Positions 2,415 to 58,967 of a stretch of 64,000 nt of DNA are shown one piece after another. The position numbers and the translations under genes are program-made. This DNA is from Siphonodentalium dalli (Eukaryota; Mollusca; Scaphopoda; Gadilida; Siphonodentaliidae), in assembly GCA_032622095.1 (NCBI GenBank), contig CP136065.1, forward strand, positions 93,751,343 through 93,815,342. Direction: 5' to 3'. Position 1 is the stretch's first letter; each line of letters opens with the position of its first letter. The notes under the pieces are model-generated. The model had not been told where the DNA came from, made no database searches, and saw only the letters and a program-made list of their open reading frames with translations.

Positions 2415-5045
2415 TTAAGCAATAAGGTGACTAGACTGAGCACTGTCTACATAGAGTTCGTTGGGCGAAGATTGGAAAGACGGCGCTGACAATGTAGATT
2501 CCATAACAGGAGGAGTGTAGTATGAAGAACCGAAGTGGTATGGATGTTGATAGCCGTATCCATACTGCTGGTAACCGCTGAAGCTGTATGTCGGATTGAA
2601 CTGATACGGAGGCACGGGTGGGTAACTGTATGCATTTATAGGGTAGGAATATTGTTCGTATTTAGCACTTGACTGTGGTTGCACACAAGCTGGTGTGTCG
2701 ACCGGTTGAATCGTACGTAGTGGTGGACTACTTGAAAGATCACTGATATACGATGAGTCCAATGTATAGTCAGTCGGTCGTCTGTTGACATCGAACTCTG
2801 GGCTGGAATCCAACAATGTCTCGTAACCACTATCCACACTGATGTTTGGTGACGAGTAACTAATACTATTCGCCGAAGCACATGGAGACAGAACCGCATA
2901 ACCTACTGGCGAAGCAGGCTCGCTGGCGACGAATGGTTGAACTGGTGACGTGGTTGTCGGGAGCCGTTCGGGATGTTGCTCGTTTGTTGTTGGGTTAACT
3001 GACGGCACGATGTCATCACGTGGTGATAGATCGCAGAACTGCGACTCGAACACTTTTCGCGGCTCAGCTGACATGGAGAGGTTGTGTCTGAATGTCTCCA
3101 TTCTATGTGACAACGCAGTGGATACACGGTCCCAGAACTGGCCGGCGTTTACTCGGTGGAAACCCCAACGCAGGGTGTTGGTACCGCTCTCTCGGTCGAC
3201 GTTAGATCGGTAGTCTCCTTTGGCGAATGTTGGAAGGCTGGTGGGGACGATGGTCCAGAGGAAGGTAGCTCTGCCGAGAGGTCCTGACTGAAGCTGGCCG
3301 CGACCGACGCCGATCTTGGTGAAGCATTTTGTTTTGGAGAGACTGTGTCTGACGGCGTTCTTCCAGTGTTCTCTTGTCGAATGTCGGAAGAATGAGAAGC
3401 GATGCTTGATGTAGCGGTATATCTCGGTGATTGGAAGGCAGAAGTTTGGAGATCTCAGGACGGCGATGTAGATGAGTTCGGTGTAGGAGTAGTTGGGCTT
3501 GACGTTGATGTCATCGCTGACGTCAAGGCGTTCGTACAGGGCGACGAAGTTGTTGACGACTTTGCGGAGATCTATGTCGGTTTCTTGTGAAAATTGTGTT
3601 TTCGTTTGCTGATCGTAGGTACCTGGAAGCAGAAGACGATTCTAGTTAGAAACAATAATGGGCGTGTTGTGGTTAAAGAAAGTTAGATAACTCCATATCC
3701 TGATCAACAGGGCATTATCTTATTACCTAACATCAGATCATTTAAAGCTGTTTTAACCGGATACGTACTCTGTTTAGCGTGCGTATATATGGCCTTGGTA
3801 TTACGTAGGCTACGTAGCCATACATGATTGTATATATATTAAACATACGCAAGTCACCAAATCAACCATTAAATCATGGGACCAGACCAACATTAGAATC
3901 ATAATCAGCAAAAACGGACATAACGTCAGAAGAAGAACTATCTACTGTGAACAATATATATTCTCCACAAAAATATATATGTGTTACAATGTAGTCTTTA
4001 ACAAACTGAAAGGTTATGAGGGTGTTCTCAACATTTGACTGCGTTTTACTATGCGGATATGCCTTTAATTAACAAAACATAAGGGTGGTGACGGTATGCA
4101 GGATACCCTTAAAGATGCGGGCGGCGTTGGCGGTGTGTGTTAATGTATTCACCTACGTCAAAACCGCCATAAACAGAAAGAATAGTAAGATATAGACAGA
4201 AATATGACATAAACAGTGTGTTATTGTCCAATTTTTTTCCCTTTGTTGTGTAAACAAAAGCAAAAAACTTTACGTTTCCTGGCTTTTGTTTAGATCCGGA
4301 TATAGTAAACATAAAGAGCGTTATGGAAATAATAAAGAGCATTTATATCACTTGTGTGTGATTTACCAAAAAAATTGCGCTGTGTTATGTAAACAGAAGC
4401 ACAACTTCTGTATCACGGACAGGCTCTTATTTACGTACTCCATCGTACGTCTTGACGACAATATACTATTTACGCGCTTATTATGTTTGGCATATGAACA
4501 AAACTATATAGATTTTAATATTCATTCTGTTGATGGCGATTTGAACAAATATGAATATTTCTGCAACGAACGCCACCCGTGCCTTTAAGTCTACGCGGAC
4601 CATACACGGTTAGAAGTCCGGGATTACTGTGACCACCCAATAGAATCATAGAGCAATATTACACGTGTACTCCTTTTTACAGTGCGGATATGCTTTTAAG
4701 GAAAGTGGAGGATGGAAATGATGAGAAGAGACAAAATGTCTTGTTAGATCTGTCTATTCGTGTATTTGAAATAGAAAATTATGGTGGATGTACAAATTTT
4801 ATCGCACATGTTTACCAACATTCACTTTTTACGGTTATATGAATTTAATTATTATTGTTTTGTAACATCTATCAATGATAGCACTGGCCACTGTGGGGTT
4901 GGTGGGCAATGTATTTAGCGTTATATGATTTTAGAAGGGTGTGACGACATTTAATGAACATACCTGGCCGGTGCTGGAGAAGATGGCGAACCTTTTCAGA
5001 ATGATCATCCTGGATGGAGAATTCGTCGGAAAATTTGCGCTTCAT
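2415..5045 (-). CDS. Forkhead-domain transcription factor, copy 1 (two exons)
   Basis: Exon 1 is 4964-5045 and exon 2 is 2415-3622, with a 1341-bp GT-AG intron (donor GTATGT, acceptor TTCCAG). The phase-1 join gives 429 residues. The start is the ATG of MKRKFSDEFS; a more upstream ATG seen in other copies is cut off here by an in-frame TGA. Residues 69-154 (3243-3500) form a forkhead domain: KPNYSYTELI at the start, helix 3 HWKNAVRHSLSKTKCF with the Asn, Arg and His typical of DNA-contacting positions, then a wing ending in LWTIVP. The rest is Ser/Pro-rich and ends in a Tyr-rich stretch at about 360-410. Forkhead proteins bind DNA in the nucleus as monomers. The wing reads GRGQLQ here against GRGQPQ in other copies. 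The subfamily is not recognisable to me. The frame is open throughout exon 2. A possible poly(A) signal on this strand is at 2023-2028. Confidence 0.85.
4286..4588 (+). other. 100-codon antisense ORF in forkhead intron
   Basis: Plus-strand ORF, starting FRSGYSKHKERYGNN and ending NERHPCL, inside the copy-1 intron. It is repeated open in copy 6 (58279-58581) and, fused to element DNA, in copy 5 (up to 41073). In copies 2 and 3 (13315 and 20634) a 7-base insertion breaks it. A weakly similar stretch near 33050 suggests it derives from a dispersed repeat. No known domain seen; likely not a gene. Confidence 0.2.
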
Positions 5046-6720: not shown

Positions 6721-7325
6721 ATTTATTTTGGACAACATCGAAGACTCTATTAGTGGTGCACGTGACAGCGGATGTGAATTGATAGTCACCGGTGACTTCA
6801 ATGAAGATCAAACCCATACCCCTCGAGGGTACATTCATAACTTAAGTAGCGCATGCGGTCTCAAGCAATATAATAAAATCTCCAACACACTTTACTGAAA
6901 ATTCGAGAACTATTTTGGATCTTTTTCTCGTATCAAACCCAGACACAGTCAAAGATTACACCATTCTCGACCGTTTCATGCAGACTTGAAGCGATATCAC
7001 TGCCCAGTTAATGTACTTTTTAAATATGGAAACAACAGGCCTAAAAATACTATAAAACGCACTATTTGGAATTACAACCTTGCTGATTACGTTAAAATGA
7101 ACCAAGCTTTTGATGAATGGAATAACTCAGATGATCTTAATAACTATAATTGTAACTCATTGACAAGTACTGTAACCACAAAAATAATGAACGTAGCGAA
7201 AACATTTATACCAAATAATGTAATACTAGTCCGCAGAGATAATCCACCATGGCTTACTTGCAACATCCGTAGACTAATAAGGGAACGGAGAAAAATCCCT
7301 CAGTGTGACCTCTCGATGGGTGCCT
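6721..7325 (+). pseudogene. Decayed non-LTR retrotransposon ORF2 fragment
   Basis: Reading frames with frameshifts and a stop near 6897 encode the end of an AP-like endonuclease domain (ELIVTGDFNED, then YHCPVNV) and the linker to the reverse transcriptase (NNVILVRRDNPPWLTCNIRR). The longest open piece is 6986-7372. Sequence after about 7325 is not LINE. The last 150 bases recur at 13798-13945, where the second 6.6-kb block begins. Confidence 0.65.
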
Positions 7326-7441
7326 ACCATTTTTCCAAAATGTATGTGTGGGTTTGGGGTGTCAAGTTGTAAATTTCCAACCGTTGAAAATCTGGGGCAC
7401 CAGTTGGGAAATTAAAATTGAGCCACAAGGGGGGTGTCTGG

Positions 7442-9563
7442 GCCCTGTTTCATGAAAGCAACTTATGACATAGTTGGGACTTAAGATGGTCATAAGTTCA
7501 AACTTCAGTCATAAGTGCGTTTCACGAACAAGGTCTTAACTTAAGATGGTCTTAACTTTGGTCTTAACTTTGGTCTTAACTTTAAGACTGCTGTGAGGTG
7601 TCATAAGATAATCTTAAAGTTAAGACCAACGTGGCATATCGATCACAAGTATGGCGGCCTATGTTATTTTGCAATTACGGAGATATCTGTACATTGTCTG
7701 GGTGGGCAATTCGTCGTCTGGTATACAGGGTCGTGGATACATAGTGAGAGGGGGTGTTCGCCTCGAAATGTCCAACTATACACCCAATTAAACAACACCA
7801 AATTCTCTTTGGGTTTAAACATTCCAACTGGTACCTCAAACATTCCAAGACCAAAGTTTGGAGAGGGCACCCCCCCCCCACCGTATAACCATAGGGTTAA
7901 TTTGGTAAAAACAATTCAGAGTACAGACTTATCAGGGACGTGGCGAATGGGGTTTGTGTGTTGTCTACCCCCCCCCCCCCCCCCCCCCCCCCACCACACA
8001 CACACACTTTGGTCAAAATGTTTAGCACTTGGAAATTTCATGCCTGACAAGAACATTAATCGTACACTTTATATAGGTTTCAATTGTTTGAATTTCTAAA
8101 TAGTAAAGAAATGTGTTGTTTTAGACAAACAGCAGCAACCGAAAATCACCAACTTTAGCGGCGTCAGGTTAGAAATTTCGTACTGTTGGAATATTTTAGA
8201 TACCAATTGGAAAGTTTGAATCCAACGGGTGGGGTGGACATGGCATTTCGCGAACATGGAAGTTTGGCCCGGTTCAATTAAGGGGCGGGTGCAGTTGGAA
8301 ATTGCACGATGTACCACCCCCCCCCCCCACAGGGACCAACTAGCCACCCCGAGCATCGTCGAATGTAGGATATAGTCAATTATCAGCTGTGTATGTGACC
8401 TATAGATAATATATATTATAAAATTGTATTACCCACGAATTAAACTTTTGATAAGAATTATGGCCTAGCTCAAAGCTCACACTCTCCTCTATGTTATTCC
8501 ATGTGTGTGTGTGTGTGTGTGTGTGAGATGGGGTAAAATGAGATCAATTAATGTATTGATTCTTTCCTCTTTCCAAATTTCCGTCGGCTGTTTACAAAGC
8601 AGATCATGTCATATAGGAAAGGTAACACAAACGGTCTTTATCAAAATATGTTTTAGAAATAGTGACAATTTTCTATAGAGAATATCATTTTTATTGAGTT
8701 TATGCCCACGCCCATATGTCGTGATTTTCAAGGCTGTCCAAATTCTTGTCATGTTTTTTTTTGCAGGGGTGGGATGACCGTTGTACAGCATACTGTATAT
8801 ATGATATACACACCCGTAACGATGACACCCCTTAATACGAGTGTGCTAACGAAAACGTAGTTTTATATATATATATCCATGGTATGACAACCGCATAAAA
8901 CATCTGCATAAAAATAATTAAAAAAATATTTTTCATTTCCATTTGAATCGAAAAATGACCTATGTGTGTCCTAATGACATCGCCGATTTATTTTGATTAT
9001 TGCTACACGTAGAGAGCGGTGGTCGATAATATACGAGTCATGTCGGCTCACATAAAAAAAATCGCCGCCTGATCATTGCTCTCAGTTGATTAACTCGGCG
9101 TGAATGCATGGTCGCAGTCATGCATCGATCCATATAATTATATTGTCTTATTTCTGACACCGCCACTCGTCAGTAAACGCAAAGCTCGTCATTTTAAGAG
9201 CCTGCGATGTACTCGTGATGTTCGAATTCACATCGTGTAACTCATACAAGTCTAAGATCCATATGCGAATAAAAGGCCATGCATTGACTATAGACACTAA
9301 GATACATGCGCTGATTCGCCCACCCACCCCAGCCGCTATCCAGCATCCCTGTCACACAATAATGTCAACTCGGACTCGGCTCTTTCTCGATAACCTCTCA
9401 ATGCCGTACATAAAGATTGCACAAGCCCACATTGTTTTCGTTCCGGACTGTAGAAAATTGTCGATAACCAGTCTAAATGAGCGGGAACTTAACTTACTAT
9501 TTAAGTAGGACTTAATCTTGTTTTGTGAAACGCGTTCTTGAAACGGAAAAGTTACATCATAAG
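7442..9563. mobile_element. Non-autonomous TIR element (PIF/Harbinger-like), right end lost
   Basis: The left end reads GCCCTGTTTCATGAAA after TGG. The uninterrupted site is seen 3' of copy 1 at about 342-352 (GTGTCTGGTCTGG). The other end, ATGAAACAGGC followed by TGG, survives at 54474-54488. A 3-bp target duplication and this type of terminus fit PIF/Harbinger. Subterminal inverted copies of GCGTTTCAC and TCTTAA-rich repeats flank an interior with C-runs, a (TG)n tract at about 8500 and no transposase. Here the right end is missing, joined to flank at a shared TAAG. ORFs in the interior (for example 7593-8099) resemble no known protein. Confidence 0.6.
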
Positions 9564-9739
9564 TCGGACATCCTTCAGCGGAGTCCCTCTAGCCACGCCC
9601 CTGGTCAGGACGAGCTTTGCAAACAGCTTTAAATAGCAAGGTCGTATTACAAGTGTATCAATAAGCGTTGATATCATACAAAGTAGCTCGCGGTGTTATA
9701 CACTAGTACACCCTTGTGGTATCCTTTCACCCAAGCTTC

Positions 9740-10405
9740 TTCAATCACCACACCAAAGCACAACGCGTCCGATATTTAACACCCGAGTTACAAGCTAAAT
9801 GTCCGCATGGATACAAAATTAACTAATTTCCCAGTCCAAATAGACCGTATATATAACTCCGGTAAGAATGAATATAAGAAACCAAAAGTAAGTCCCCCCC
9901 CGAGCTGTGCTATCACCACACCAAAACACAGATTAGTTACAAGCTAAAATGTTCTATCGGCACAAAGTTCCAAGTCTTAAACAAGGGTCGTAACTCTGGT
10001 AAAAAGAATAATGGATGAAACCCATAATATGTGGCTATCGCAAAAGACAATGGAATCCGATAACTATAACATCCAAGTTACAAGCTGAAATGTTTGTACG
10101 TTAAAAAATTCAAACAAGGACCGTAATTCTAGAAAAAAAAATGAATGGACGAAAGCCTTAGTACATGTATGTGTGTAGCGTATCTAAACACGTGCTATCA
10201 CCATGACAATTGACAACGACATCCGATAATTACCACCCGAGTTGCGAGCTTATATGTTCCTAAGGACACACATTTCCAGAGCCGTAATTCTGGTAAACAA
10301 TATTGGACGAAATCCCCCGATATGTGCTATCACCACACAAAAGGACGACGATATCCGATAATTAGCACCCGAGTAGCAAGGTGATCTTTTTGGACAGACG
10401 GACGG
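9740..10405. repeat. Degenerate tandem repeat, 3' of copy 2
   Basis: Same five-unit array as 3' of copy 1, with a shorter C-run. It lies in the first 6.6-kb block. The rest of 9564-11448 is unit DNA (the GATCGGGTGCATATAAATCG stretch and the 3' UTR region of copy 2) without recognisable genes. Confidence 0.65.
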
Positions 10406-11448
10406 AAACATCAGCTATATGCACCGAAAATCCTATGGGGATCGGGTGCATATAAATCGACTTGATCTTTTAGAATGGGACACCGAAGTTTTCGACAATT
10501 CGTTTGTGTATATTAACTAATAGAAAAAACAATATTCACGGTGGCGACATTTTAACCATGAGACGCCTGTTACTTCATAATACTGATGTGTGACAGCTCG
10601 TGGTCCGAATTGTTAACATTCAATATGGGATAGGCTTGGGAAATTGGGAAAGATAATCGTGTGGATGTTTGGAATATTTCATTAAAACGCATAAATGTCA
10701 CCCATATTCCACATATATAGAACCAAAAAGAAGGCAGCTATGAATACAAAAAAACATGACATAAAAACTAGGTCAATAAATGCCATTTTATTTTTAAGTA
10801 ACTTGTTTATGCCCTTCGCACAGTTTCGTACCTACATGTACGGTCAAACGTACGAACTTAATTATCATCAATTGGGTTGAAAATATTATAGTTGGAAATA
10901 TGGCGGTACCGGTTGTACCCAAATGGGCGTACAAATGAACTTGGTATTATGGTCTGGTTCAAATGGGTGCCGATGGAAAGCTGATGGTGGAGACCATCTA
11001 GCCACGTCCCTCAGCTGATGTTGGCGGATTCTGACTATTGATAAGTGCATGATAATTTATTTATCTCAATAATAACAATTTATACAACAGTAAATTTTAG
11101 CACAGTTATCTAATGACAAGATGTCAAGCAGACAATTCAAGTAATATACAATTCTACTTGAGTAAATTTACAATCAAATCCGCCATCGTAACTATAACAA
11201 CGTAAATAAAGAGTAACAAACAGATATTCCATAAATGCAAAACTGAATTTGAAGAAAGCAAGTATCTTTTTGTAATGAATGTAACACACTATTCTAGTTT
11301 TGATAAATGAAATTAATTTGATGGAAATTAGTAATAAGCGCCCCATAGTGGGTTTCCACTTTATTTCAGCTGGTGAAACGGAATTGTCGTGTTGTATGGT
11401 TTGCAATTATGGAATATCATACATCAATAATGTTCATGAATACAAAAT

Positions 11449-12577
11449 TTAAGCAATAAGGTGACTAGACTGAGCACTGTCAACATAGAGTTCGTTGGGC
11501 GAAGATTGGAAAGACGGCGCTGACAATGTAGATTCCATAACAGGAGGAGTGTAGTATGAAGAACCGAAGTGGTATGGATGTTGATAGCCGTATCCATACT
11601 GCTGGTAACCGCTGAAGCTGTATGTCGGATTGAACTGATACGAAGGCACGGGTGGGTAACTGTATGTAGTTATAGGGTAGGAATATTGTTCGTATTTAGC
11701 ACTCGACTGTGGTTGCACACAAGCTGGTGTGTCGACCGGTTGAATCGTACGTAGTGGTGGACTACTTGAAAGATCACTGATATACGATGAGTCCAATGTA
11801 TAGTCAGTCGGCCGTCTGTTGACATCGAACTCTGGGCTGGAATCCAACAATGTCTCGTAACCACTATCCACACTGATGTTTGGTGACGAGTAACTAATAC
11901 TATTCGCCGAAGCACATGGAGACAGAACCGCATAATCTACTGGCGAAGCAGGCTCGCTGGAGACGAATGGTTGAACTGGTGACGTGGTTGTCGGGTGCCG
12001 TTCGGGATGTTGCTCGTTTGTTGTTGGGTTAACTGACGGCACGATGTCATCACGTGGTGATAGATCGCAGATCTGCGACTCGAACACTTTTCGCGGCTCA
12101 GCTGACATGGAGAGGTTGTGTCTGAATGTCTCCATTCTATGTGACAACGCAGTGTATACACGGTCCCAGAACTGGCCGGCGTTTACTCGGTGGTAGCCCC
12201 AACGCAGGGTGTTGGTACCGCTCTCTCGGTCGACGTTAGATCGGTAGTCTCCTTTGGCGAATGTTGGAAGGCTGGTGGGGACGATGGTCCAGAGGAAGGT
12301 AGCTCTGCCGAGAGGTCCGGACTGAGGCTGGCCGCGACCGACGCCGATCTTGGTGAAGCAATTTGTTTTGGAGAGACTGTGTCTGACGGCGTTCTTCCAG
12401 TGTTCTCTTGTCGAATGTCGGAAGAATGAGAAGCGATGCTTGATGTAGCGGTATATCTCGGTGATTGGAAGGCAGAAGTTTGGAGATCTCAGGACGGCGA
12501 TGTAGATGAGTTCGGTATAGGAGTAGTTGGGCTTGACGTTGATGTCATCGCTGACGTCAAGGCGTTCGTACAGGGCG
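11449..12577 (-). pseudogene. Forkhead gene copy 2, 5'-truncated (no exon 1)
   Basis: This is exon 2 of the same family: the full forkhead domain and the whole Ser/Pro/Tyr-rich tail are open to the TAA at 11449. The 5' end is missing. At 12575-12577 the coding sequence runs straight into DNA that lies upstream of exon 1 in the intact genes, joined at a shared GCG. The acceptor site, about 27 residues of exon 2, the intron and exon 1 are all gone. The frame stays open into the flank to a GTG at 12648, but that extension has no ATG, so a normal start is lacking. Helix 3 has KTNCF against KTKCF elsewhere. It could be a recent pseudogene, or a gene using a new promoter and a non-AUG or internal start (the first internal in-frame ATG is the Met of HRMETF). 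Confidence 0.8.
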
Positions 12578-13249
12578 TTGCAGCAATGAAGGCATGCCTT
12601 GTACTGACTAACGGAAAGTTCAACACAATTAACGCAGTCAGTGATCACAACTAATTAGGAGACACGATTGGTGTACTGACCATGTGATTACCGAAGACTA
12701 GTGAACATAGCTGACTATGTGTTGACACTGATGTTGCCCATTCGTGGCAGTGTTTAACGGAGAAGCATCGTGATTTTTTTTTCGAAATTGAAACTCTTTG
12801 AATGAGTAAATAATTGTGACACTGATACTCCGGTTGTTGGCGGTTGACCAGCCTGTTGTGAAACGAAAACAGGTAATTGCAAGTATTGTTTTTATGTTTT
12901 GCCCGATGAGCTGAACTTTATCTTAGGAAGTTTTGGATTATTCAGTGTCAAATCGAACGGTGGATTTTAAAATGTAGTCAATACACTCAAAATCCTTTAC
13001 AACGATTTCTTTATATAATATATGTAATGCTACTGGTAAATATTATGAATGTCTTCCAATTTCGAGCCATAAGATTGCCATATGTTTATCACCCGATAAT
13101 TCGACCCGAACAAAGTAGTAAATACTTAAATGTGTAAAGTTCAAATTCATTATGTTCTCTGAAATGGTAACGTCGATGTGGTTCACGTGGTTGGAATAGT
13201 TCAATCTTAGTTGATATATATGTATATTATTCCACAGGAGGTATAGTGT
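12578..13249. other. 5'-flank DNA displaced next to exon 2 of copy 2
   Basis: Matches 5232-5900 (upstream of exon 1 in copy 1). At 13245-13249 it joins intron sequence through a shared AGTGT, and intron DNA then runs to 13797. Gene order is therefore exon 2, 5' flank, intron, LINE. The same flank-intron joint recurs in copy 3 at 20564-20568. Confidence 0.75.
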
Positions 13250-13797
13250 GTTATTGTCAATTTTTTTCCCTTTGTAGTGTAAACAAAAGCTAAAAACGTT
13301 ACGTTTCCTGGCTTTTGTTTAGATCCGGATATGGTAAACATAAAAAGCGTTATGGAAATAATAAAGAGCATTTATATCACTTGTGTGTGATTTACCAATA
13401 TAATTGCGCTGTGTTATGTAAACAGAAGCACAACTTCTGTAACACGGGCAGGCTCTTATTTCTTATTTACGTACTCCATCGTACGTCTTGGCGACAATAT
13501 ACTATTTACGCGCTTATTATGTTTGGCATATGAACAAAACTATAAAGATTTTAATATTCATTCTGTTGATGGCGATTTGAACAAATATGAATATTTCTGC
13601 AACGAACGCCGCCCGTGCCTTTAAGTTCTACGCGGACCATACACAGTTAGAAGTCCGGGATTACTGTGACCACCCAATAGAATCATGGTAGAGCAATATT
13701 GCACGTGTACTCCTTTTTACAGTGCGGATATGCTTTTAAGGAAAGTGGAGGATGGAAATGATGAGAAGAGACAAAATGGCTTGTTAGATCTGTCAAA

Positions 13798-13945
13798 ACC
13801 ACAAAAATAATGAACGTAGCGAAAACATTTATACCAAATAATGTAATACTAGTCCGCAGAGATAATCCACCATGGCTTACTTGCAACATCCGTAGACTAA
13901 TAAGGGAACGGAGAAAAATCCCTCAGTGTGACCTCTCGATGGGTG
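13798..13945 (+). pseudogene. Duplicate tail of the decayed LINE fragment
   Basis: Identical to 7175-7325. It marks the start of the second tandem block and abuts forkhead intron sequence on its left. Confidence 0.65.
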
Positions 13946-14064
13946 CCTACCATTTTTCCAAAATGTATGTGTGGGTTTGGGGTGTCAAGTTGTAAATTTC
14001 CAACCGTTGAAAATCTGGGGCACCAGTTGGGAAATTAAAATTGAGCCACAAGGGGGGTGTCTGG

Positions 14065-16177
14065 GCCCTGTTTCATGAAAGCAACTTATGACATAGTTGG
14101 GACTTAAGATGGTCATAAGTTCAAACTTCAGTCATAAGTGCGTTTCACGAACAAGGTCTTAACTTAAGATGGTCTTAACTTTGGTCTTAACTTTGGTCTT
14201 AACTTTAAGACTGCTGTGAGGTGTCATAAGATAATCTTAAAGTTAAGACCAACGTGGCATATCGATCACAAGTATGGCGGCCTATGTTATTTTGCAATTA
14301 CGGAGATATCTGTACATTGTCTGGGTGGGCAATTCGTCGTCTGGTATACAGGGTCGTGGATACATAGTGAGAGGGGGTGTTCGCCTCGAAATGTCCAACT
14401 ATACACCCAATTAAACAACACCAAATTCTCTTTGGGTTTAAACATTCCAACTGGTACCTCAAACATTCCAAGACCAAAGTTTGGAGAGGGCACCCCCCCC
14501 CCCCCACCGTATAACCATAGGGTTAATTTGGTAAAAACAATTCAGAGTACAGACTTATCAGGGACGTGGCGAATGGGGTTTGTGTGTTGTCTACCCCCCC
14601 CCCCCCACCACACACACACACTTTGGTCAAAATGTTTAGCACTTGGAAATTTCATGCCTGACAAGAACATTAATCGTACACTTTATATAGGTTTCAATTG
14701 TTTGAATTTCTAAATAGTAAAGAAATGTGTTGTTTTAGACAAACAGCAGCAACCGAAAATCACCAACTTTAGCGGCGTCAGGTTAGAAATTTCGTACTGT
14801 TGGAATATTTTAGATACCAATTGGAAAGTTTGAATCCAACGGGTGGGGTGGACATGGCATTTCGCGAACATGGAAGTTTGGCCCGGTTCAATTAAGGGGC
14901 GGGTGCAGTTGGAAATTGCACGATGTACCACCCCCCCCCCCCACAGGGACCAACTAGCCACCCCGAGCATCGTCGAATGTAGGATATAGTCAATTATCAG
15001 CTGTGTATGTGACCTATAGATAATATATATTATAAAATTGTATTACCCACGAATTAAACTTTTGATAAGAATTATGGCCTAGCTCAAAGCTCACACTCTC
15101 CTCTATGTTATTCCATGTGTGTGTGTGTGTGTGTGTGTGAGATGGGGTAAAATGAGATCAATTAATGTATTGATTCTTTCCTCTTTCCAAATTTCCGTCG
15201 GCTGTTTACAAAGCAGATCATGTCATATAGGAAAGGTAACACAAACGGTCTTTATCAAAATATGTTTTAGAAATAGTGACAATTTTCTATAGAGAATATC
15301 ATTTTTATTGAGTTTATGCCCACGCCCATATGTCGTGATTTTCAAGGCTGTCCAAATTCTTGTCATGTTTTTTTTTGCAGGGGTGGGATGACCGTTGTAC
15401 AGCATACTGTATATATGATATACACACCCGTAACGATGACACCCCTTAATACGAGTGTGCTAACGAAAACGTAGTTTTATATATATATATCCATGGTATG
15501 ACAACCGCATAAAACATCTGCATAAAAATAATTAAAAAAATATTTTTCATTTCCATTTGAATCGAAAAATGACCTATGTGTGTCCTAATGACATCGCCGA
15601 TTTATTTTGATTATTGCTACACGTAGAGAGCGGTGGTCGATAATATACGAGTCATGTCGGCTCACATAAAAAAAATCGCCGCCTGATCATTGCTCTCAGT
15701 TGATTAACTCGGCGTGAATGCATGGTCGCAGTCATGCATCGATCCATATAATTATATTGTCTTATTTCTGACACCGCCACTCGTCAGTAAACGCAAAGCT
15801 CGTCATTTTAAGAGCCTGCGATGTACTCGTGATGTTCGAATTCACATCGTGTAACTCATACAAGTCTAAGATCCATATGCGAATAAAAGGCCATGCATTG
15901 ACTATAGACACTAAGATACATGCGCTGATTCGCCCACCCACCCCAGCCGCTATCCAGCATCCCTGTCACACAATAATGTCAACTCGGACTCGGCTCTTTC
16001 TCGATAACCTCTCAATGCCGTACATAAAGATTGCACAAGCCCACATTGTTTTCGTTCCGGACTGTAGAAAATTGTCGATAACCAGTCTAAATGAGCGGGA
16101 ACTTAACTTACTATTTAAGTAGGACTTAATCTTGTTTTGTGAAACGCGTTCTTGAAACGGAAAAGTTACATCATAAG
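14065..16177. mobile_element. Second copy of the PIF/Harbinger-like TIR element
   Basis: Same element in the second 6.6-kb block, with the identical truncated right joint. It was therefore already truncated before the block duplicated. Differences are mainly in C-run and TG-run length. Confidence 0.6.
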
Positions 16178-16356
16178 TCGGACATCCTTCAGCGGAGTCC
16201 CTCTAGCCACGCCCCTGGTCAGGACGAGCTTTGCAAACAGCTTTAAATAGCAAGGTCGTATTACAAGTGTATCAATAAGCGTTGATATCATACAAAGTAG
16301 CTCGCGGTGTTATACACTAGTACACCCTTGTGGTATCCTTTCACCCAAGCTTCTTC

Positions 16357-17025
16357 AATCACCACACCAAAGCACAACGCGTCCGATATTTAACACCCGA
16401 GTTACAAGCTAAATGTCCGCATGGATACAAAATTAACTAATTTCCCAGTCCAAATAGACCGTATATATAACTCCGGTAAGAATGAATATAAGAAACCAAA
16501 AGTAAGTCCCCCCCCCCCCCCGAGCTGTGCTATCACCACACCAAAACACAGATTAGTTACAAGCTAAAATGTTCTATCGGCACAAAGTTCCAAGTCTTAA
16601 ACAAGGGTCGTAACTCTGGTAAAAAGAATAATGGATGAAACCCATAATATGTGGCTATCGCAAAAGACAATGGAATCCGATAACTATAACATCCAAGTTA
16701 CAAGCTGAAATGTTTGTACGTTAAAAAATTCAAACAAGGACCGTAATTCTAGAAAAAAAAATGAATGGACGAAAGCCTTAGTACATGTATGTGTGTAGCG
16801 TATCTAAACACGTGCTATCACCATGACAATTGACAACGACATCCGATAATTACCACCCGAGTTGCGAGCTTATATGTTCCTAAGGACACACATTTCCAGA
16901 GCCGTAATTCTGGTAAACAATATTGGACGAAATCCCCCGATATGTGCTATCACCACACAAAAGGACGACGATATCCGATAATTAGCACCCGAGTAGCAAG
17001 GTGATCTTTTTGGACAGACGGACGG
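16357..17025. repeat. Degenerate tandem repeat, 3' of copy 3
   Basis: Near-identical to the array at 9740-10405, displaced by about 6.62 kb. The flank onward to 18068 likewise mirrors 10405-11448. Confidence 0.65.
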
Positions 17026-18068
17026 AAACATCAGCTATATGCACCGAAAATCCTATGGGGATCGGGTGCATATAAATCGACTTGATCTTTTAGAATGGGA
17101 CACCGAAGTTTTCGACAATTCGTTTGTGTATATTAACTAATAGAAAAAACAATATTCACGGTGGCGACATTTTAACCATGAGACGCCTGTTACTTCATAA
17201 TACTGATGTGTGACAGCTCGTGGTCCGAATTGTTAACATTCAATATGGGATAGGCTTGGGAAATTGGGAAAGATAATCGTGTGGATGTTTGGAATATTTC
17301 ATTAAAACGCATAAATGTCACCCATATTCCACATATATAGAACCAAAAAGAAGGCAGCTATGAATACAAAAAAACATGACATAAAAACTAGGTCAATAAA
17401 TGCCATTTTATTTTTAAGTAACTTGTTTATGCCCTTCGCACAGTTTCGTACCTACATGTACGGTCAAACGTACGAACTTAATTATCATCAATTGGGTTGA
17501 AAATATTATAGTTGGAAATATGGCGGTACCGGTTGTACCCAAATGGGCGTACAAATGAACTTGGTATTATGGTCTGGTTCAAATGGGTGCCGATGGAAAG
17601 CTGATGGTGGAGACCATCTAGCCACGTCCCTCAGCTGATGTTGGCGGATTCTGACTATTGATAAGTGCATGATAATTTATTTATCTCAATAATAACAATT
17701 TATACAACAGTAAATTTTAGCACAGTTATCTAATGACAAGATGTCAAGCAGACAATTCAAGTAATATACAATTCTACTTGAGTAAATTTACAATCAAATC
17801 CGCCATCGTAACTATAACAACGTAAATAAAGAGTAACAAACAGATATTCCATAAATGCAAAACTGAATTTGAAGAAAGCAAGTATCTTTTTGTAATGAAT
17901 GTAACACACTATTCTAGTTTTGATAAATGAAATTAATTTGATGGAAATTAGTAATAAGCGCCCCATAGTGGGTTTCCACTTTATTTCAGCTGGTGAAACG
18001 GAATTGTCGTGTTGTACGGTTTGCAATTATGGAATATCATACATCAATAATGTTCATGAATACAAAAT

Positions 18069-21000
18069 TTAAGCAATAAGGTGACTAGACTGAGCACTGT
18101 CAACATAGAGTTCGTTGGGCGAAGATTGGAAAGACGGCGCTGACAATGTAGATTCCATAACAGGAGGAGTGTAGTATGAAGAACCGAAGTGGTATGGATG
18201 TTGATAGCCGTATCCATACTGCTGGTAACCGCTGAAGCTGTATGTCGGATTGAACTGATACGAAGGCACGGGTGGGTAACTGTATGTAGTTATAGGGTAG
18301 GAATATTGTTCGTATTTAGCACTTGACTGTGGTTGCACACAAGCTGGTGTGTCGACCGGTTGAATCGTACGTAGTGGTGGACTACTTGAAAGATCACTGA
18401 TATACGATGAGTCCAATGTATAGTCAGTCGGTCGCCTGTTGACATCGAACTCTGGGCTGGAATCCAACAATGTCTCGTAACCACTATCCACACTGATGTT
18501 TGGTGACGAGTAACTAATACTATTCGCCGAAGCACATGGAGACAGAACCGCATAATCTACTGGCGAAGCAGGCACGCTGGCGACGAATGGTTGAACTGGT
18601 GACGTGGTTGTCGGGAGCCGTTCGGGATGTTGCTCGTTTGTTGTTGGGTTAACTGACGGCACGATGTCATCACGTGGTGATAGATCGCAGATCTGCGACT
18701 CGAACACTTTTCGCGGCTCAGCTGACATGGAGAGGTTGTGTCTGAATGTCTCCATTCTATGTGACAACGCAGTGGATACACGGTCCCAGAACTGGCCGGC
18801 GTTTACTCGGTGGTAGCCCCAACGCAGGGTGTTGGTACCGCTCTCTCGGTCGACGTTAGATCGGTGGTCTCCTTTGGCGAATGTTGGAAGGCTGGTGGGG
18901 ACGATGGTCCAGAGGAAGGTGGCTCTGCCGAGAGGTCCGGACTGAGGCTGGCCGCGACCGACGCCGATCTTGGTGAAGCATTTTGTTTTGGAGAGGCTGT
19001 GTCTGACGGCGTTCTTCCAGTGTTCTCTTGTCGAATGTCGGAAGAATGAGAAGCGATGCTTGATGTAGCGGTATATCTCGGTGATTGGAAGGCAGAAGTT
19101 TGGAGATCTCAGGACGGCGATGTAGATGAGTTCGGTATAGGAGTAGTTGGGCTTGACGTTGATGTCATCGCTGACGTCAAGGCGTTCGTACAGGGCGACG
19201 AAGTTGTCGACGACTTTGCGGAGATCTATGTCGGTTTCTTGTGAAAATTGTGTTTTCGTTTGCTGATCGTAGGTACCTGGAAGCAGAAGACGATTCTAGT
19301 TAGAAACAATAATGGGCGTGCTATGGTTAAAGAAAGTTAGATAACTCCATATCCTGATCAACAGGGCATTATCTTATTACCTAACATCAGATCATTTAAA
19401 GCTGTTTTAACCGGATACGTACTCTGTTTAGCGTGTGTATATATGGCCTTGGTATTACGTAGCCATACATGATTGTATATATATTAAACATACGCAATTC
19501 ACCAAATCAACCATTAAATCATGGAACCAGACCAACATTATAATTATAATCAGCAAAAACGGACATAACGTCAGAAGAAGAACTATCTACTGTGAACAAT
19601 ATATATTCTCAACAAAAATATATATGTGTTACAATGTAGCCTTTAACAAACTGAAAGGTTATGAGGGTGGGGACGATGGTCCAGAGGAAGGTGGCTCTGC
19701 CGAGAGGTCCGGACTGAGGCTGGCCGCGACCGACGCCGATCTTGGTGAAGCATTTTGTTTTGGAGAGGCTGTGTCTGACGGCGTTCTTCCAGTGTTCTCT
19801 TGTCGAATGTCGGAAGAATGAGAAGCGATGCTTGATGTAGCGGTATATCTCGGTGATTGGAAGGCAGAAGTTTGGAGATCTCAGGACGGCGATGTAGATG
19901 AGCAATGAAGGCATGCCTTGTACTGACTAACGGAAAGTTCAACACAATTAACGCAGTCAGTGATCACAACTAATTAGGAGACACGATTGGTGTACTGACC
20001 ATGTGATTACCGAAGACTAGTGAACATAGCTGACTATGTGTTGACACTGATGTTGCCCATTCGTGGCAGTGTTTAACGGAGAAGCATCGTGATTTTTTTT
20101 TCGAAATTGAAACTCTTTGAATGAGTAAATAATTGTGACACTGATACTCCGGTTGTTGGCGGTTGACCAGCCTGTTGTGAAACGAAAACAGGTAATTGCA
20201 AGTATTGTTTTTATGTTTTGCCCGATGAGCTGAACTTTATCTTAGGAAGTTTTGGATTATTCAGTGTCAAATCGAACGGTGGATTTTAAAATGTAGTCAA
20301 TACACTCAAAATCCTTTACAACGATTTCTTTATATAATATATGTAATGCTACTGGTAAATATTATGAATGTCTTCCAATTTCGAGCCATAAGATTGCCAT
20401 ATGTTTATCACCCGATAATTCGACCCGAACAAAGTAGTAAATACTTAAATGTGTAAAGTTCAAATTCATTATGTTCTCTGAAATGGTAACGTCGATGTGG
20501 TTCACGTGGTTGGAATAGTTCAATCTTAGTTGATATATATGTATATTATTCCACAGGAGGTATAGTGTGTTATTGTCAATTTTTTTCCCTTTGTAGTGTA
20601 AACAAAAGCTAAAAACGTTACGTTTCCTGGCTTTTGTTTAGATCCGGATATGGTAAACATAAAAAGCGTTATGGAAATAATAAAGAGCATTTATATCACT
20701 TGTGTGTGATTTACCAATATAATTGCGCTGTGTTATGTAAACAGAAGCACAACTTCTGTAACACGGGCAGGCTCTTATTTCTTATTTACGTACTCCATCG
20801 TACGTCTTGGCGACAATATACTATTTACGCGCTTATTATGTTTGGCATATGAACAAAACTATAAAGATTTTAATATTCATTCTGTTGATGGCGATTTGAA
20901 CAAATATGAATATTTCTGCAACGAACGCCGCCCGTGCCTTTAAGTTCTACGCGGACCATACACAGTTAGAAGTCCGGGATTACTGTGACCACCCAATAGA

Positions 21001-21328
21001 ATCATGGTAGAGCAATATTGCACGTGTACTCCTTTTTACAGTGCGGATATGCTTTTAAGGAAAGTGGAGGATGGAAATGATGAGAAGAGACAAAATGGCT
21101 TGTTAGATCTGTCTATTCGTGTATTTGAAATATATAATTATGGTGGATGTACATATTTTATCGCACATGTTTACCAACATTAACTTTTTACGGTTATATG
21201 AATTTAAATGATTTTAGAAGGGTGTGACGACATTTAATGAACATACCTGGCCGGTGCTGGAGAAGACGGCGAACTTTCTCAGAATGATCATCCTGGATTG
21301 AGAATTCGTCGGAAAATTTGCGCTTCAT
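18069..21328 (-). CDS. Forkhead-domain transcription factor, copy 3 (rearranged intron)
   Basis: Exon 1 is 21247-21328 (start MKRKFSDEFS) and exon 2 is 18069-19276, both with the same splice signals as copy 1, giving 429 residues. An in-frame ATG at 21412 would add 28 residues (MCPHDRRLSF...). The forkhead domain (about 18897-19154) and the tail are intact; the tail has ASVP where copies 1, 5 and 6 have ASEP. The intron is 1970 bp because it holds an insert: a 237-bp duplicate of the forkhead-coding sequence (19666-19902) followed by DNA normally found upstream of exon 1 (to about 20564), after which normal intron resumes. The duplicate lies in sense, so aberrant splicing or read-through is conceivable. 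Exon 2 of this copy and of copy 2 belong to the 6.6-kb duplicated blocks. Confidence 0.8.
19666..19902 (-). pseudogene. Forkhead-domain fragment inside the intron of copy 3
   Basis: A sense-strand duplicate of most of the forkhead-coding sequence, reading IYIAVLRSPNFCLPITEIYR through the helix 3 RHSLS motif to LWTIVP, with no stop inside. The left joint shares GGTG between intron and exon sequence, and the right joint shares AG with the upstream flank. Neither end coincides with a splice site of the intact gene, so it is more likely debris of template switching than a spare exon. It matches copy 3 itself closely in sequence, which suggests a young event. Confidence 0.8.
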
Positions 21329-36436: not shown

Positions 36437-36669
36437 TTTGGTTGCCAGGTCGATGCTATTTTTAGATGCTAGATATGGAAGTCCTATTAATGTCTCAAAA
36501 CCAACAGTTGGTAGTTTCTATTTAGTTTAATTTAGTACATTAGTCAATTTATGAGATTGATGTACATTCTTTTCACTTGTAATACATTGTGAAGTCGCTC
36601 CTTTCTCCGAACAAAACGAGAAAACTCTTCACTGAAATTTACTCCGTCTCGCCTTGTTCCGCCATCTTG

Positions 36670-38041: not shown

Positions 38042-41000
38042 TTAAGCAATAAGGCGACTAGACTGAGCACTGTCTACATAGAGTTCGTTGGGCGAAGATT
38101 GGAAAGACGGCGCTGACAATGTAGATTCCATAACAGGAGGAGTGTAGTATGAAGAACCGAAGTGGTATGGATATTGATAGCCGTATCCATACTGCTGGTA
38201 ACCGTTGAAGCTGTATGTCGGATTGAACTGATACGGAGGCACGGGTGGGTAACTGTATGTAGTTATAGGGTAGGAATATTGTTCGTATTTAGCACTTGAC
38301 TGTGGTTGCACACAAGCTGGTGTGTCGACCGGTTGAATCGTACGTAGTGGTGGACTACTTGAAAGATCACTGATATACGATGAGTCCAATGTATAGTCAG
38401 TCGGTCGTCTGTTGACATCGAACTCTGGGCTGGAATCCAACAATGTCTCGTAACCACTATCCACACTGATGTTTGGTGACGAGTAACTAATACTATTCGC
38501 CGAAGCACATGGAGACAGAACCGCATAATCTACTGGCGAAGCAGGCTCGCTGGCGACGAATGGTTGAACTGGTGACGTGGTTGTCGGGAGCCGTTCGGGA
38601 TGTTGCTCGTTTGTTGTTGGGTTAACTGACGGCACGATGTCATCACGTGGTGATAGATCGCAGATCTGCGACTCGAACACTTTTCGCGGCTCAGCTGACA
38701 TGGAGAGGTTGTGTCTGAATGTCTCCATTCTATGTGACAACGCAGTGGATACACGGTCCCAGAACTGACCGGCGTTTACTCGGTGGTAGCCCCAACGCAG
38801 GGTGTTGGTACCGCTCTCTCGGTCGACGTTAGATCGGTAGTCTCCTTTGGCGAATGTTGGAAGGCTGGTGGGGACGATGGTCCAGAGGAAGGTAGCTCTG
38901 CCGAGAGGTCCGGACTGAGGCTGGCCGCGACCGACGCCGATCTTGGTGAAGCATTTTGTTTTGGAGAGGCTGTGTCTGACGGCGTTCTTCCAGTGTTCTC
39001 TTGTCGAATGTCGGAAGAATGAGAAGCGATGCTTGATGTAGCGGTATATCTCGGTGATTGGAAGGCAGAAGTTTGGAGATCTCAGGACGGCGATGTAGAT
39101 GAGTTCGGTGTAGGAGTAGTTGGGCTTGACGTTGATGTCATCGCTGACGTCAAGGCGTTCGTACAGGGCGACGAAGTTGTCGACGACTTTGCGGAGATCT
39201 ATGTCGGTTTCTTGTGAAAATTGTGTTTTCGTTTGCTGATCGTAGGTACCTGGAAGCAGAAGACGATTCTAGTTAGAAACAACAATGGGCGTGCTATGGT
39301 TAGATAACTCCATATCCTGATCAACAGGGCATTATCTTATTACCTAACATCAGATCATTTAAATTGTTTTAACCGGATACGTACTCTGTTTAGCGTGTGT
39401 ATATATGGCCTTGGTATTACATAGCCATACATGATTGTATATATATTAAACATACGCAATTCACCAAATCAATCATTAAATCATGGAACCAGACGAACAT
39501 TATAATTATAATCAGCAAAAACGGACATAACGTCAGAAGAACTATCTACTGTGAACAATATATATTCTCAACAAAAATATATATGTGTTACAATGTAGCC
39601 TTTAACAAACTGAAAGGTTATGAGGGTGCTCTGAACATTTGACTGCGTTTTACTATGCGGATATGCCTTTAATTAACAAAACATAAGGGTGGTGACGGTA
39701 TGCAGGATTCCCTTAAAGATACGGGCGGCGTTGGCGGTGTGTGTTAAAATATTCACCTTCGTCAATAACCGCCATAAACGGAAAGAATAGTAAGATATAG
39801 ACATAAATATGGCATAAACAGTATGTTATTGTCAATTTTGTTTCCTTTGTTGTGTAAACAAAAGCAAAAAACGTTACGTTTCCTGGTTTTTGTTTAGATC
39901 CGGATAGACCCCGAAGCCACGACAAATAGTTTTCATGGCTGGCTCAACCGATTTTCGTGGCTGGTTAACTAGCTAAGCCGGCTCAGTCATGACGTTCGTG
40001 GCTGACGAAATATGGCGGCTGAGCCGGCTGAGATGTTGTCATTCAGCGTATTCTCGTTTCCGAAACGTTCCTAATCCCCTGTTACCGGTTATAGACGCCG
40101 TTTTTTTTTTTAGCGTTTGTGGTAAACCCGTAGAATTCCAGACCACACGTAATCTTTTGATGTTGGGCTTTTCCATTATGGCGAAAATTCACGAAGGACT
40201 GGTATGGATATACTATATGTAGTTTCCCATCTAATCGGTATGAGAAGTTACATTTGGGACTTCTGTCGACTTCAGACTGCTACCATCACTGCCATCTTGC
40301 GATATATGCATGCATGAATGATGAACCCGATAGTAATGATATATAATATTTCAAACTATTTTCTATTCTTATGTGTATTATATATTGACAAATGCCAGCG
40401 ATGTCCGAGACTGTGTTGTCGATATAAACAATTTATATTTTAACCCTTTCAATACCGAATGGATGCGCTCATTCAGTTATATGAAAGCATGCATTGGGAT
40501 AGTCTATTCCACACTAAGGGGGCCGGTGTTCTGATAATATAACAACCATGCCGTGTCCATGTGAGTATATGCCAATATTAGGTAATGTGGTTTAGTTCTT
40601 TGCGATTCACAGTACAGTTGTGCTTGACATATAAGCCCATGCACATGGCTCAGCCATTTTACAATTCCGGTGGCGGAGATTTTTAAATGTGGCTGGCGTT
40701 AGCGATAATATGGCTGGCGGCGGCTTGTGGCCAATATGGCTGGCGGCGGCGGCGTGCGATGGCGGCTTCGGGCTCTAGATCCGGATATGGTAAACATAAA
40801 GAGCGTTGTGGAAATAATAAAGAGCATTTATATCACCTGTGTGTGATTAACCAATATAATTGCGCTGTGTTATGTAAACAGAAGCACAACTTCTGTAACA
40901 CGGGCAGGCTCTTATTTACGTACACCATCGTACGTCTTGACGACAATATACTATTTACGCGCTTATTATGTTTGGCATATGAACAAAACTATATAGATTT

Positions 41001-41458
41001 TAATATTTATTCTGTTGATGGCGATTTGAACAAATATGAATATTTCTGCAACGAACGCCGCCCGTGCCTTTAAGTTCTACGCGGACCATACACAGTTAGA
41101 AGTCCGGGATTACTGTGACCACCCAATAGAATCATGGTAGAGCAATATTGCACGTGTACTCCTTTTTACAGTGCGGATATGCTTTTAAGGAAAGTGGAGG
41201 ATGGAAATGATGAGAAGAGACAAAATGGCTTGTTAGATCTGTCTATTCGTGTATTTGAAATATATAATTATGGTGGATGTACATATTTTATCGCACATGT
41301 TTACCAACATTAACTTTTTACGGTTACATGAATTTAAATGATTTTAGAAGGGTGTGACGACATTTAATGAACATACCTGGCCGGTGCTGGAGAAGACGGC
41401 GAACTTTCTCAGAATGATCATCCTGGATTGAGAATTCGTCGGAAAATTTGCGCTTCAT
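38042..41458 (-). CDS. Forkhead-domain transcription factor, copy 5 (element in intron)
   Basis: Exon 1 is 41377-41458 and exon 2 is 38042-39249, with conserved donor and acceptor, giving 429 residues. A 28-residue N-terminal extension is possible from the ATG at 41542. Forkhead domain and tail are intact. Changes specific to this copy are SFNGYQ, GYQYPYH and the C-terminal SSRLIA. The intron is 2127 bp long because an 869-bp element with terminal inverted repeats sits in it at 39907-40775, flanked by a 12-bp target duplication. The splice sites are untouched, so splicing could still work. Subfamily not assigned. Confidence 0.85.
39895..40787. mobile_element. 869-bp TIR element in copy 5 intron with 12-bp target duplication
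   Basis: The element is 39907-40775: it begins GACCCCGAAGCC and ends GGCTTCGGGCTC, inverted repeats matching at 11 of 12 positions. TAGATCCGGATA occurs directly on both sides (39895-39906 and 40776-40787) and once in the uninterrupted introns of copies 1, 3, 4 and 6. The interior has GGCTGGCGGCGG repeats and a piece matching 45490-46165. It encodes no transposase. I cannot name the superfamily; 12 bp is longer than usual for common DNA transposons. Confidence 0.75.
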
Positions 41459-44522: not shown

Positions 44523-44526
44523 TTGA

Positions 44527-48829: not shown

Positions 48830-48951
48830 CTCTATCTCGTAAACCCAATAGTCACTGTTACTGTTATAAACCTAAGTTTTTCTTTTCTAGCTCATATCTC
48901 ACATCTTATTACTCATATATTTTTACAACTTCTTATATATCACCTCTCAAT

Positions 48952-53106: not shown

Positions 53107-53140
<34 letters not shown>

Positions 53141-53258: not shown

Positions 53259-53289
<31 letters not shown>

Positions 53290-53565: not shown

Positions 53566-53587
53566 AAAAAAATCGCCGCCTGATATC

Positions 53588-56428: not shown

Positions 56429-58967
56429 TTAAGCAATAAGGTGACTAGACTGAGCACTGTCTACATAGAGTTCGTTGGGCGAAGATTGGAAAGACGGCGC
56501 TGACAATGTAGATTCCATAACAGGAGGAGTGTAGTATGAAGAACCGAAGTGGTATGGATGTTGATAGCCGTATCCATACTGCTGGTAACCGCTGAAGCTG
56601 TATGTCGGATTGAACTGATACGGAGGCACGGGTGGGTAACTGTATGTAGTTATAGGGTAGGAATATTGTTCGTATTTAGCACTTGACTGTGGTTGCACAC
56701 AAGCTGGTGTGTCGACCGGTTGAATCGTACGTAGTGGTGGACTACTTGAAAGATCACTGATATACGATGAGTCCAATGTATAGTCAGTCGGTCGTCTGTT
56801 GACATCGAACTCTGGGCTGGAATCCAACAATGTCTCGTAACCACTATCCACACTGATGTTTGGTGACGAGTAACTAATACTATTCGCCGAAGCACATTGA
56901 GACAGAACCGCATAATCTACTGGCGAAGCAGGCTCGCTGGCGACGAATGGTTGAACTGGTGACGTGGTTGTCGGGAGCCGTTCGGGATGTTGCTCGTTTG
57001 TTGTTGGGTTAACTGACGGCACGATGTCATCACGTGGTGATAGATCGCAGATCTGCGACTCGAACACTTTTCGCGGCTCAGCTGACATGGAGAGGTTGTG
57101 TCTGAATGTCTCCATTCTATGTGACAACGCAGTGGATACACGGTCCCAGAACTGGCCGGCGTTTACTCGGTGGTAGCCCCAACGCAGGGTGTTGGTACCG
57201 CTCTCTCGGTCGACGTTAGATCGGTAGTCTCCTTTGGCGAATGTTGGAAGGCTGGTGGGGACGATGGTCCAGAGGAAGGTAGCTCTGCCGAGAGGTCCGG
57301 ACTGAGGCTGGCCGCGACCGACGCCGATCTTGGTGAAGCATTTTGTTTTGGAGAGGCTGTGTCTGACGGCGTTCTTCCAGTGTTCTCTTGTCGAATGTCG
57401 GAAGAATGAGAAGCGATGCTTGATGTAGCGGTATATCTCGGTGATTGGAAGGCAGAAGTTTGGAGATCTCAGGACGGCGATGTAGATGAGTTCGGTATAG
57501 GAGTAGTTGGGCTTGACGTTGATGTCATCGCTGACGTCAAGGCGTTCGTACAGGGCGACGAAGTTGTCGACGACTTTGCGGAGATCTATGTCGGTTTCTT
57601 GTGAAAATTGTGTTTTCGTTTGCTGATCGTATGTACCTGGAAGCAGAAGACGATTCTAGTTAGAAACAACAATGGGCGTGCTATGGTTAAAGAAAGTTAG
57701 ATAACTCCATATCCTGATCAACAGGGCATTATGTTATTACCTAACATCAGATCATTTAAAGCTGGATACGTACTCTGTTTAGCGTGTGTATATATGGCCT
57801 TGGTATTACGTAGCCATACATGATTGTATATATATTAAACATACGCAATTCACCAAATCAACCATTAAATCATGGAACCAGACCAACATTATAATTATAA
57901 TCAGCAAAAACGGACATAACGTCAGAAGAACTATCTACTGTGAACAATATATATTCTCAACAAAAATATTTATGTGTTACAATGTAGCCTTTAACAAACT
58001 GAAAGGTTATGAGGGTGCTCTGAACATTTGACTGCGTTTTACTATGCGGATATGCCTTTAATTAACAAAACATAAGGGTGGTGACGGTATGCAGGATTCC
58101 CTTAAAGATACGGACGGCGTTGGCGGTGTGTGTTAAAATATTCACCTCCGTCAATAACCGCCATAAACGGAAAGAATAGTAAGATATAGACATAAATATG
58201 GCATAAACAGTATGTTATTGTCAATTTTTTTTCCTTTGTTGTGTAAACAAAAGCAAAAAACGTTACGTTTCCTGGTTTTTGTTTAGATCCGGATATGGTA
58301 AACATAAAGAGCGTTCTGGAAATAATAAAGAGCATTTATATCACCTGTGTGTGATTAACCAATATAATTGCACTATGTTATGTAAACAGAAGCACAACTT
58401 CTGTAACACGGGCAGGCTCTTATTTACGTACACCATCGTACGTCTTGACGACAATATACTATTTACGCGCTTATTATGTTTGGCATATGAACAAAACTAT
58501 ATAGATTTTAATATTTATTCTGTTGATGGCGATTTGAACAAATATGAATATTTCTGCAACGAACGCCGCCCGTGCCTTTAAGTTCTACGCGGACCATACA
58601 CAGTTAGAAGTCCGGGAATTACTGTGACCACCCAATAGAATCATGGTAGAGCAATATTGCACCTGTACTCCTTTTTACAGTGCGGGTATGCTTTTAAGGA
58701 AAGTGGAGGATGGAAATGATGAGAAGAGACAAAATGGCTTGTTAGATCTGTCTATTCGTGTATTTGAAATATATAATTATGGTGGATGTACATATTTTAT
58801 CGCACATGTTTACCAACATTAACTTTTTACGGTTATATGAATTTAAATGATTTTAGAAGGGTGTGACGACATTTAATGAACATACCTGGCCGGTGCTGGA
58901 GAAGACGGCGAACTTTCTCAGAATGATCATCCTGGATTGAGAATTCGTCGGAAAATTTGCGCTTCAT
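56429..58967 (-). CDS. Forkhead-domain transcription factor, copy 6 (cleanest copy)
   Basis: Exon 1 is 58886-58967 and exon 2 is 56429-57636, with the shortest intron of the array (1249 bp, GT-AG). The predicted protein is 429 residues: N-terminal MKRKFSDEFS, forkhead domain at about 69-154, Ser/Pro-rich middle, Tyr-rich end. An in-frame ATG at 59051 allows a 28-residue extension. The tail has LSQCAS where the others have LSPCAS. No insertion or rearrangement interrupts the gene, so this is the best template for the family. The second base beyond the Gly codon at the exon joint differs silently (ACA for ACC). Confidence 0.87.

Follow-up and report, generated by a model that had tools for sequence, protein, structure and literature searches.

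A young two-chromosome array of apparently coding orphan forkhead genes in the scaphopod Siphonodentalium dalli

The forkhead array in the window

The 64-kb stretch of Siphonodentalium dalli DNA analyzed here (hereafter, the window; assembly GCA_032622095.1, contig CP136065.1, positions 93,751,343 to 93,815,342) is a part of chromosome C5 and carries six forkhead-bearing open reading frames (ORFs), which we call copies A to F, and one loose domain fragment, all residing on the minus strand (Table 1). An earlier reading made from the sequence alone had described this head-to-tail arrangement, the persistence of the helix 3 motif WKNAVRHSLS, and membership of the forkhead family, and all three points hold: the motif is present in all seven items, and the Pfam Forkhead profile PF00250 matches with 76.4 bits (cut-off, 27), which places the genes in the Forkhead (Fox) superfamily.

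Complete genes of two exons, encoding 429 residues and using a GTATGT splice donor and a CCAG acceptor, are present in four of the six copies (A, C, E, and F). The span first noted for the array runs from the final base of the copy A stop codon (2415) to the A of the copy F ATG (58967). The claim of six two-exon genes stands for these four only, as the remaining two are incomplete: (i) copy B is 5'-truncated, its exon 2 being broken off at about 12577, where promoter-like and intron-like pieces come next, and (ii) copy D is without exon 1, and its homology picks up again at 27952, past a reverse-transcriptase ORF. An AATAAA or ATTAAA lies 386-387 nt beyond the stop in all six copies, B and D included.

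The sequence-only reading had also called the copies divergent, which they are not. Protein identity to copy E, the query of our searches, is 98-100% in the five full-length window copies, and copy B shows 98% identity over residues 34-408. At the DNA level, plus-strand self-alignments of the window of at least 2 kb show 95.3-99.4% identity, which excludes chance as the source of the array.

Table 1. Positions of the forkhead copies, repeat units, and retroelement ORFs in the window
Feature	Position	Strand	Basis or remark
Copy A exon 2 (forkhead domain, extension, tail, stop)	2415..3622	-	ORF and gene model
Copy A exon 1 (MKRKFSDEF...)	4964..5045	-	Promoter element ATTGTAAAAACA at 5144-5155
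6.6-kb repeat unit	7174..13794	.	Versus 13797-21113: 99.4% (5.4 kb), 100% (1.2 kb); closest unit pair in the window
Copy B exon 2, 5'-truncated	11449..12577	-	Exon 1 searched, none found
Partner of the 7174-13794 repeat unit	13797..21113	.	DNA self-alignment
Copy C exon 2	18069..19276	-	ORF and gene model
Loose forkhead-domain fragment within the copy C intron region, adjoining sequence that resembles intron and promoter	19639..19902	-	
Copy C exon 1	21247..21328	-	Promoter element ATTGTAAAAACA at 21427-21438
Copy D, exon 2 alone; promoter and exon 1 absent	24008..25215	-	
Reverse-transcriptase ORF	26625-28067		Pfam match
Copy E exon 2	38042..39249	-	ORF and gene model
Copy E exon 1	41377..41458	-	Promoter element ATTGTAAAAACA at 41557-41568
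Non-LTR retroelement: esterase-like, endonuclease, and reverse-transcriptase ORFs	47267-52506	+	
Copy F exon 2	56429..57636	-	ORF and gene model
Conserved extension on the C-terminal side of the forkhead domain	L018:3284-3946; window 56981-57598	-	
Copy F exon 1	58886..58967	-	Promoter element ATTGTAAAAACA at 59066-59077

The family across the genome and its promoter

Forkhead genes are mostly single-copy or lie in small ancient clusters; the human FOXD4L copies are a known case of multiplied Fox genes. Our protein search with copy E over the assembly (2.23 Gb, nine contigs), in which all counts are lower bounds, found at least seven near-full copies and the domain fragment on C5; the seventh full copy, L019, lies just outside the window (C5:93821691-93822899) and has an intact two-exon frame. 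A second array of at least 17 copies spans 369 kb of chromosome C4 (194.32-194.69 Mb), where 15 of the 17 retain intact two-exon frames. This array comprises sub-array a, with six copies that are 76-78% identical to copy E, and sub-array b, with 11 copies, the ten long ones being 84-86% identical and the eleventh being frameshifted and matched in three pieces. Chromosome C3 carries a single-copy relative with 55% identity, and the remaining Fox genes score far weaker. All array copies are clustered and same-strand within their arrays, and intact two-exon models were obtained for 20 of 24 (15 on C4, four in the window, and L019), among them L001, which is intact despite a promoter match that is split in two. 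The existence of the array is thus confirmed, at a younger age and a greater size than had been supposed: the proposed young local expansion is indeed young, but it is not purely local, since the family occupies two chromosomes and three sub-arrays. As a separate observation on C4, near-identical pairs run in the order L007, L009, L010 (like L009), and L006 (like L007) on one strand (C4:194629892-194690053), an unexpected order if simple tandem duplication had produced them.

The C3 gene shares its exon 1/exon 2 layout with the array copies, and a 51-bp promoter block is common to C3 and the array-a copy L014, with none of 1000 shuffles reaching its score. Further, the 12-mer ATTGTAAAAACA lies 109-110 bp before the ATG in 14 of 15 aligned array promoters, with GATTGGT residing 73-83 bp upstream of it in those 14; the C3 promoter contains both elements, 82 bp apart. 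The window holds four occurrences of this 12-mer, against an expectation of 0.03, and all four lie roughly 100 bp upstream of an exon 1. That both intron and promoter are retained argues for duplication at the DNA level and not for retroposition. Synonymous distances between the C5 window array (W) and the C4 sub-arrays are 0.29 for W-b, 0.59 for W-a, and 0.44-0.51 for b-a; they suggest a b-like lineage as the source of the C5 array, an order of events that we infer. Each array is monophyletic in trees of both the tail and the head of the gene.

The same retained intron and promoter bear on whether the forkhead gene could be the cargo of a self-inserting mobile element, which we hold to be very improbable. 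Copies do occur on two chromosomes besides the single gene, and among retroelements, as such cargo would; the array copies, however, are clustered on one strand, and the 25 matches of a 358-bp promoter and exon 1 probe, a few of them partial, all fall inside the spans of the two arrays.

It is also improbable, if somewhat less so, that the true array is smaller and that haplotypes or misjoined contigs were counted twice. Such inflation would account for the identical or near-identical copies L004/L005, L009/L010, and L012/L013, and near-identical Fox pairs occur elsewhere in the assembly, namely L061/L062 (C6:194.00 and 195.55 Mb), L063/L064 (C1:110.7 and 113.2 Mb, inverted), and L065/L066 (C2:189.08 and C5:60.09 Mb), with similarities of 99.9% over 5.4 kb, 98.8% over 5.8 kb, and 97-99% in blocks. 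These pairs are either retained haplotypes or recent segmental duplications; the assembly may thus retain some haplotype duplicates, and exact array copy numbers are therefore provisional. The window copies, however, differ in their spacing (about 6 to 18 kb), in their insertions, and in 1-5% of their bases, so that two haplotypes cannot yield six copies, and synonymous distances of 0.29-0.59 separate the three sub-arrays.

Elsewhere in the window, eight other ORFs were scanned with Pfam, of which four matched, all retroelement-like; the esterase-like ORF of the non-LTR element scored 30.9 bits, under the cut-off of 32.9. A 470-codon open frame on the minus strand (35108-36517) had no Pfam match and is perhaps a retroelement first ORF, and tRNA and Rfam scans of the window gave no match. 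A short tandem repeat with the unit TTTCAAAATGGCCGCCACTTTT lies at 31762-31835 and 63187-63260, inside a 4.6-kb block that is repeated at 98.8%. In the inspected parts of nine 400-base contig ends, TTAGGG repeats are present at one, the start of C3. Pfam searches for molluscan haemocyanin and the annelid erythrocruorin linker gave no match, in a comparison where no control genome gave one either.

Selection, probable exchange between copies, and proposed origin of the arrays

Selection was evaluated as the ratio of nonsynonymous to synonymous change (dN/dS, or omega) from Nei-Gojobori counts for W and for the C4 sub-arrays a, b1, and b2. L003 and L017 were excluded from these and from the variant counts, whereas copy B contributed its remaining codons to dN/dS and to the W variant counts and was excluded from fixed-difference counts and trees.

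Purifying selection on the forkhead domain is strong: omega is 0.033-0.053 when W is compared with the C4 sub-arrays and 0.014-0.054 when the C4 sub-arrays are compared with one another. Between arrays, omega is 0.045-0.22 in the segment directly after the domain and 0.28-0.41 in the tail. Within arrays, the tails are near-neutral, with omega values of 1.1 in W, 0.71 in a, and 4.1 in b2, the last resting on a synonymous distance of just 0.003. Variants pooled from seven W copies and seven b2 copies comprise 13 synonymous and 3 nonsynonymous changes in the domain versus 5 and 30 in the tail (Fisher p = 7e-6), and the domain counts depart from neutral expectation (p = 4e-6). Array a, which was kept out of the pool, has 9 synonymous and 2 nonsynonymous variants in the domain and 25 and 49 in the tail, and the five intact W copies alone have 4 and 1 in the domain and 2 and 13 in the tail. 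Amino-acid changes make up a larger share of the tail variants within W and b2 than of the fixed tail differences between W and b, which number 34 to 47 (p = 0.005), but the variants show no departure from neutrality of their own (p = 0.13). These values bear out the sequence-only suggestion of a DNA-binding domain that is kept while the tails drift. The dN/dS between copies that it had proposed to compute is, within the window array, 0.58 for the whole gene but 0.11 for the domain.

Could the array instead be decaying, its members being mainly non-functional passengers of a repeat-rich region, with a domain constraint that was inherited or spread by conversion from one working copy? The within-array tail values given above, the retroelements surrounding the copies, and the breakage of 4 of the 24 array copies (a stop in L003, a frameshift in L017, the truncation of B, and the loss of exon 1 from D) would all fit such decay. 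We nevertheless think it unlikely, as two-exon frames are open in the other 20 copies and the domain variants within W and b2 depart from neutrality in the direction of constraint.

The distribution of synonymous change along the gene is uneven. When third positions of the first 150 aligned codons are compared with those of the tail, the ratio of differences is 0.25-0.42 for array a versus b or W, 0.60-0.70 for W versus b, 0.69-0.72 for W, a, and b versus C3, and 1.53 for b1 versus b2 (p = 0.3). Sub-array b2 carries 9 synonymous variants across 87 domain codons but just 1 across about 250 tail codons (p = 3e-5), and different arrays have alleles in common at codons 28, 79, 91, 93, and 143. This synonymous mosaic suggests gene conversion across the forkhead domain. 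Head and tail trees showed no significant conflict (approximately unbiased [AU] test, p = 0.35, with b held together in the head tree), and we therefore regard gene conversion as supported rather than demonstrated.

Taken together, we consider it probable that a single gene gave rise to both arrays by DNA duplication and tandem amplification. The ancestor would have been a single two-exon forkhead gene, with the C3 gene as its surviving single-copy relative; gene and promoter would have been duplicated as DNA onto C4 and amplified there in tandem, and a lineage near sub-array b would then have seeded the younger C5 array. Unequal crossing-over would both multiply and break copies, while gene conversion would swap the forkhead-box segment among copies and arrays. 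If expressed, the arrays would most likely provide one transcription factor in high dose, its DNA specificity being fixed and its tails variable, and its place of action is possibly the germline or the early embryo. Several of our results weigh against this account: (i) the C3 splice acceptor is not uniquely fixed; (ii) the copy F promoter alone does not match C3 significantly, 70 of 1000 shuffles being as good; and (iii) the broken copies, the whole-gene omega of the window array, the lack of significant conflict between head and tail trees, and the possible haplotype duplicates described above all count on the same side.

Fox class and known systems

To place the family, its domain was compared with PDB sequences, where the best scores were 61.7 bits for FoxA2, 58.9 for FoxN1, and 57.7 for FoxN3; the C3 stretch scored 61.0 bits with FoxP4, 59.2 with FoxN1, and 58.5 with FoxA2. 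Control genes from the same genome scored 198 (FoxK), 189 (FoxO), 141 (FoxN2/3), and 79 bits (FoxM), the FoxM margin being modest. This genome thus contains a FoxM-like gene, while FoxM is reported lost in panarthropods (PMC8918179). By these scores, with a best of 62 bits, the family appears to be claimed by no Fox class with a solved structure. In a 40-row tree, it is sister to four FoxN rows (91/70, unstarred), and its stem has a length of 2.03 changes per column. Nine groupings were tried, one of which was already present in the tree; AU tests rejected none of the other eight (0.58 for N1/4, 0.57 for N2/3, and 0.13-0.49 for A, K, M, O, P, or L050). Four of the genome's own rows, which we take to be Q2-like and which alone represent FoxQ2, make up a starred group of their own (98/99) in the free tree, away from the family. 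The forkhead domain resides within a single exon in the arrays and in C3, whereas the genome's own FoxK, FoxO, FoxM, and FoxP domains are intron-split; the intron inside the domain by which Clade II Fox genes are recognized is thus absent from the family. NCBIfam, a library of bacterial and archaeal proteins, gave no match.

Others have placed FoxT in or near FoxN1/4 (PMC8918179). A member of FoxT would be expected to group with arthropod fd3F/Crg-1 and with the FoxT of Owenia and Lingula. With FoxT considered by its published description only, the family appears to be an orphan forkhead, FoxN-like at best, and the scores and tree leave it without a class, as the sequence-only reading had proposed.

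An AlphaFold model for which six sequences were used has a modest quality (mean predicted local distance difference test score [pLDDT], 63.6; predicted template modeling score [pTM], 0.63). It predicts a winged helix with an N-terminal helix and, after the wing, strands and a long helix in the conserved extension. The 50 PDB matches listed by Foldseek for this model are all forkhead structures. Compared with PDB sequences, the extension itself had no credible match, a single beta-glucosidase (E, 0.33) being taken as chance; this extension may prove diagnostic of the Fox class to which the family belongs.

The family is most likely an orphan, FoxN-like transcription factor that was amplified recently, is still coding, and is comparable with the mammalian Obox/LEUTX arrays. 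A bolder version is possible but doubtful, in which an orphan Fox class with its own extension forms a dosage array of ~20 genes on two chromosomes, its box homogenized by interchromosomal conversion, as an independent forkhead counterpart of Obox/LEUTX that probably serves germline or early zygotic control.

Our search of open-access papers did not find a 20-copy array of closely similar forkhead genes. Among Fox genes, the spiralian FoxQ2 expansions, which reach 13 genes in one annelid (PMC12828049), are likewise lineage-specific and partly tandem, but their copies are old and divergent, whereas those of the window array are 98-100% alike and not FoxQ2-like in our tree (PMC12828049, PMC9539403). 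FoxT is a class placed in or near FoxN1/4 and is expanded in one annelid, Capitella (PMC8918179, PMC9539403), where eight genes have some FoxT similarity and FoxT is hinted at by maximum likelihood only (PMC9539403). The planarian FoxN(P) and FoxA(P) are also lineage-specific divergent Fox subfamilies, one of them beside FoxN, although they are listed as single genes (PMC7859237); both they and FoxT were compared by description only. In the cat flea, a high Fox number is similarly ascribed to tandem duplication, in an arthropod with more than 30 Fox genes in all (PMC8918179).

By analogy, the closest mode of evolution appears to be that of the mammalian ETCHbox genes, with 27 LEUTX copies in rabbit and 66 Obox loci in mouse (PMC8208926). 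The traits seen in our arrays (tandem arrangement, tail drift, and broken copies) recall Obox and LEUTX, and the rabbit LEUTX and mouse Obox/TPRX2 arrays are likewise large, lineage-specific tandem arrays of a divergent transcription factor in which some copies are broken (PMC8208926), the broken fraction being 4 of 24 here versus the 45% cited for rabbit LEUTX. Conversion is also reported there as concentrated toward the DNA-binding box, with more events detected when the homeobox is taken by itself than when entire genes are (PMC8208926), whereas in our arrays it is backed by synonymous ratios and not by tree conflict. The two systems differ in that the ETCHbox genes encode a homeobox and have a known embryonic role (PMC8208926), while ours encode a forkhead and occupy two chromosomes. 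With ~20 closely similar, apparently coding copies in which the domain is constrained and the tails are free, and with a single-copy relative of the same layout, the scaphopod arrays would offer a direct test of dosage as the cause of transcription-factor arrays; they would also let one ask how gene conversion fixes binding specificity and whether such arrays serve other animals in the way that Obox and LEUTX serve mammals.

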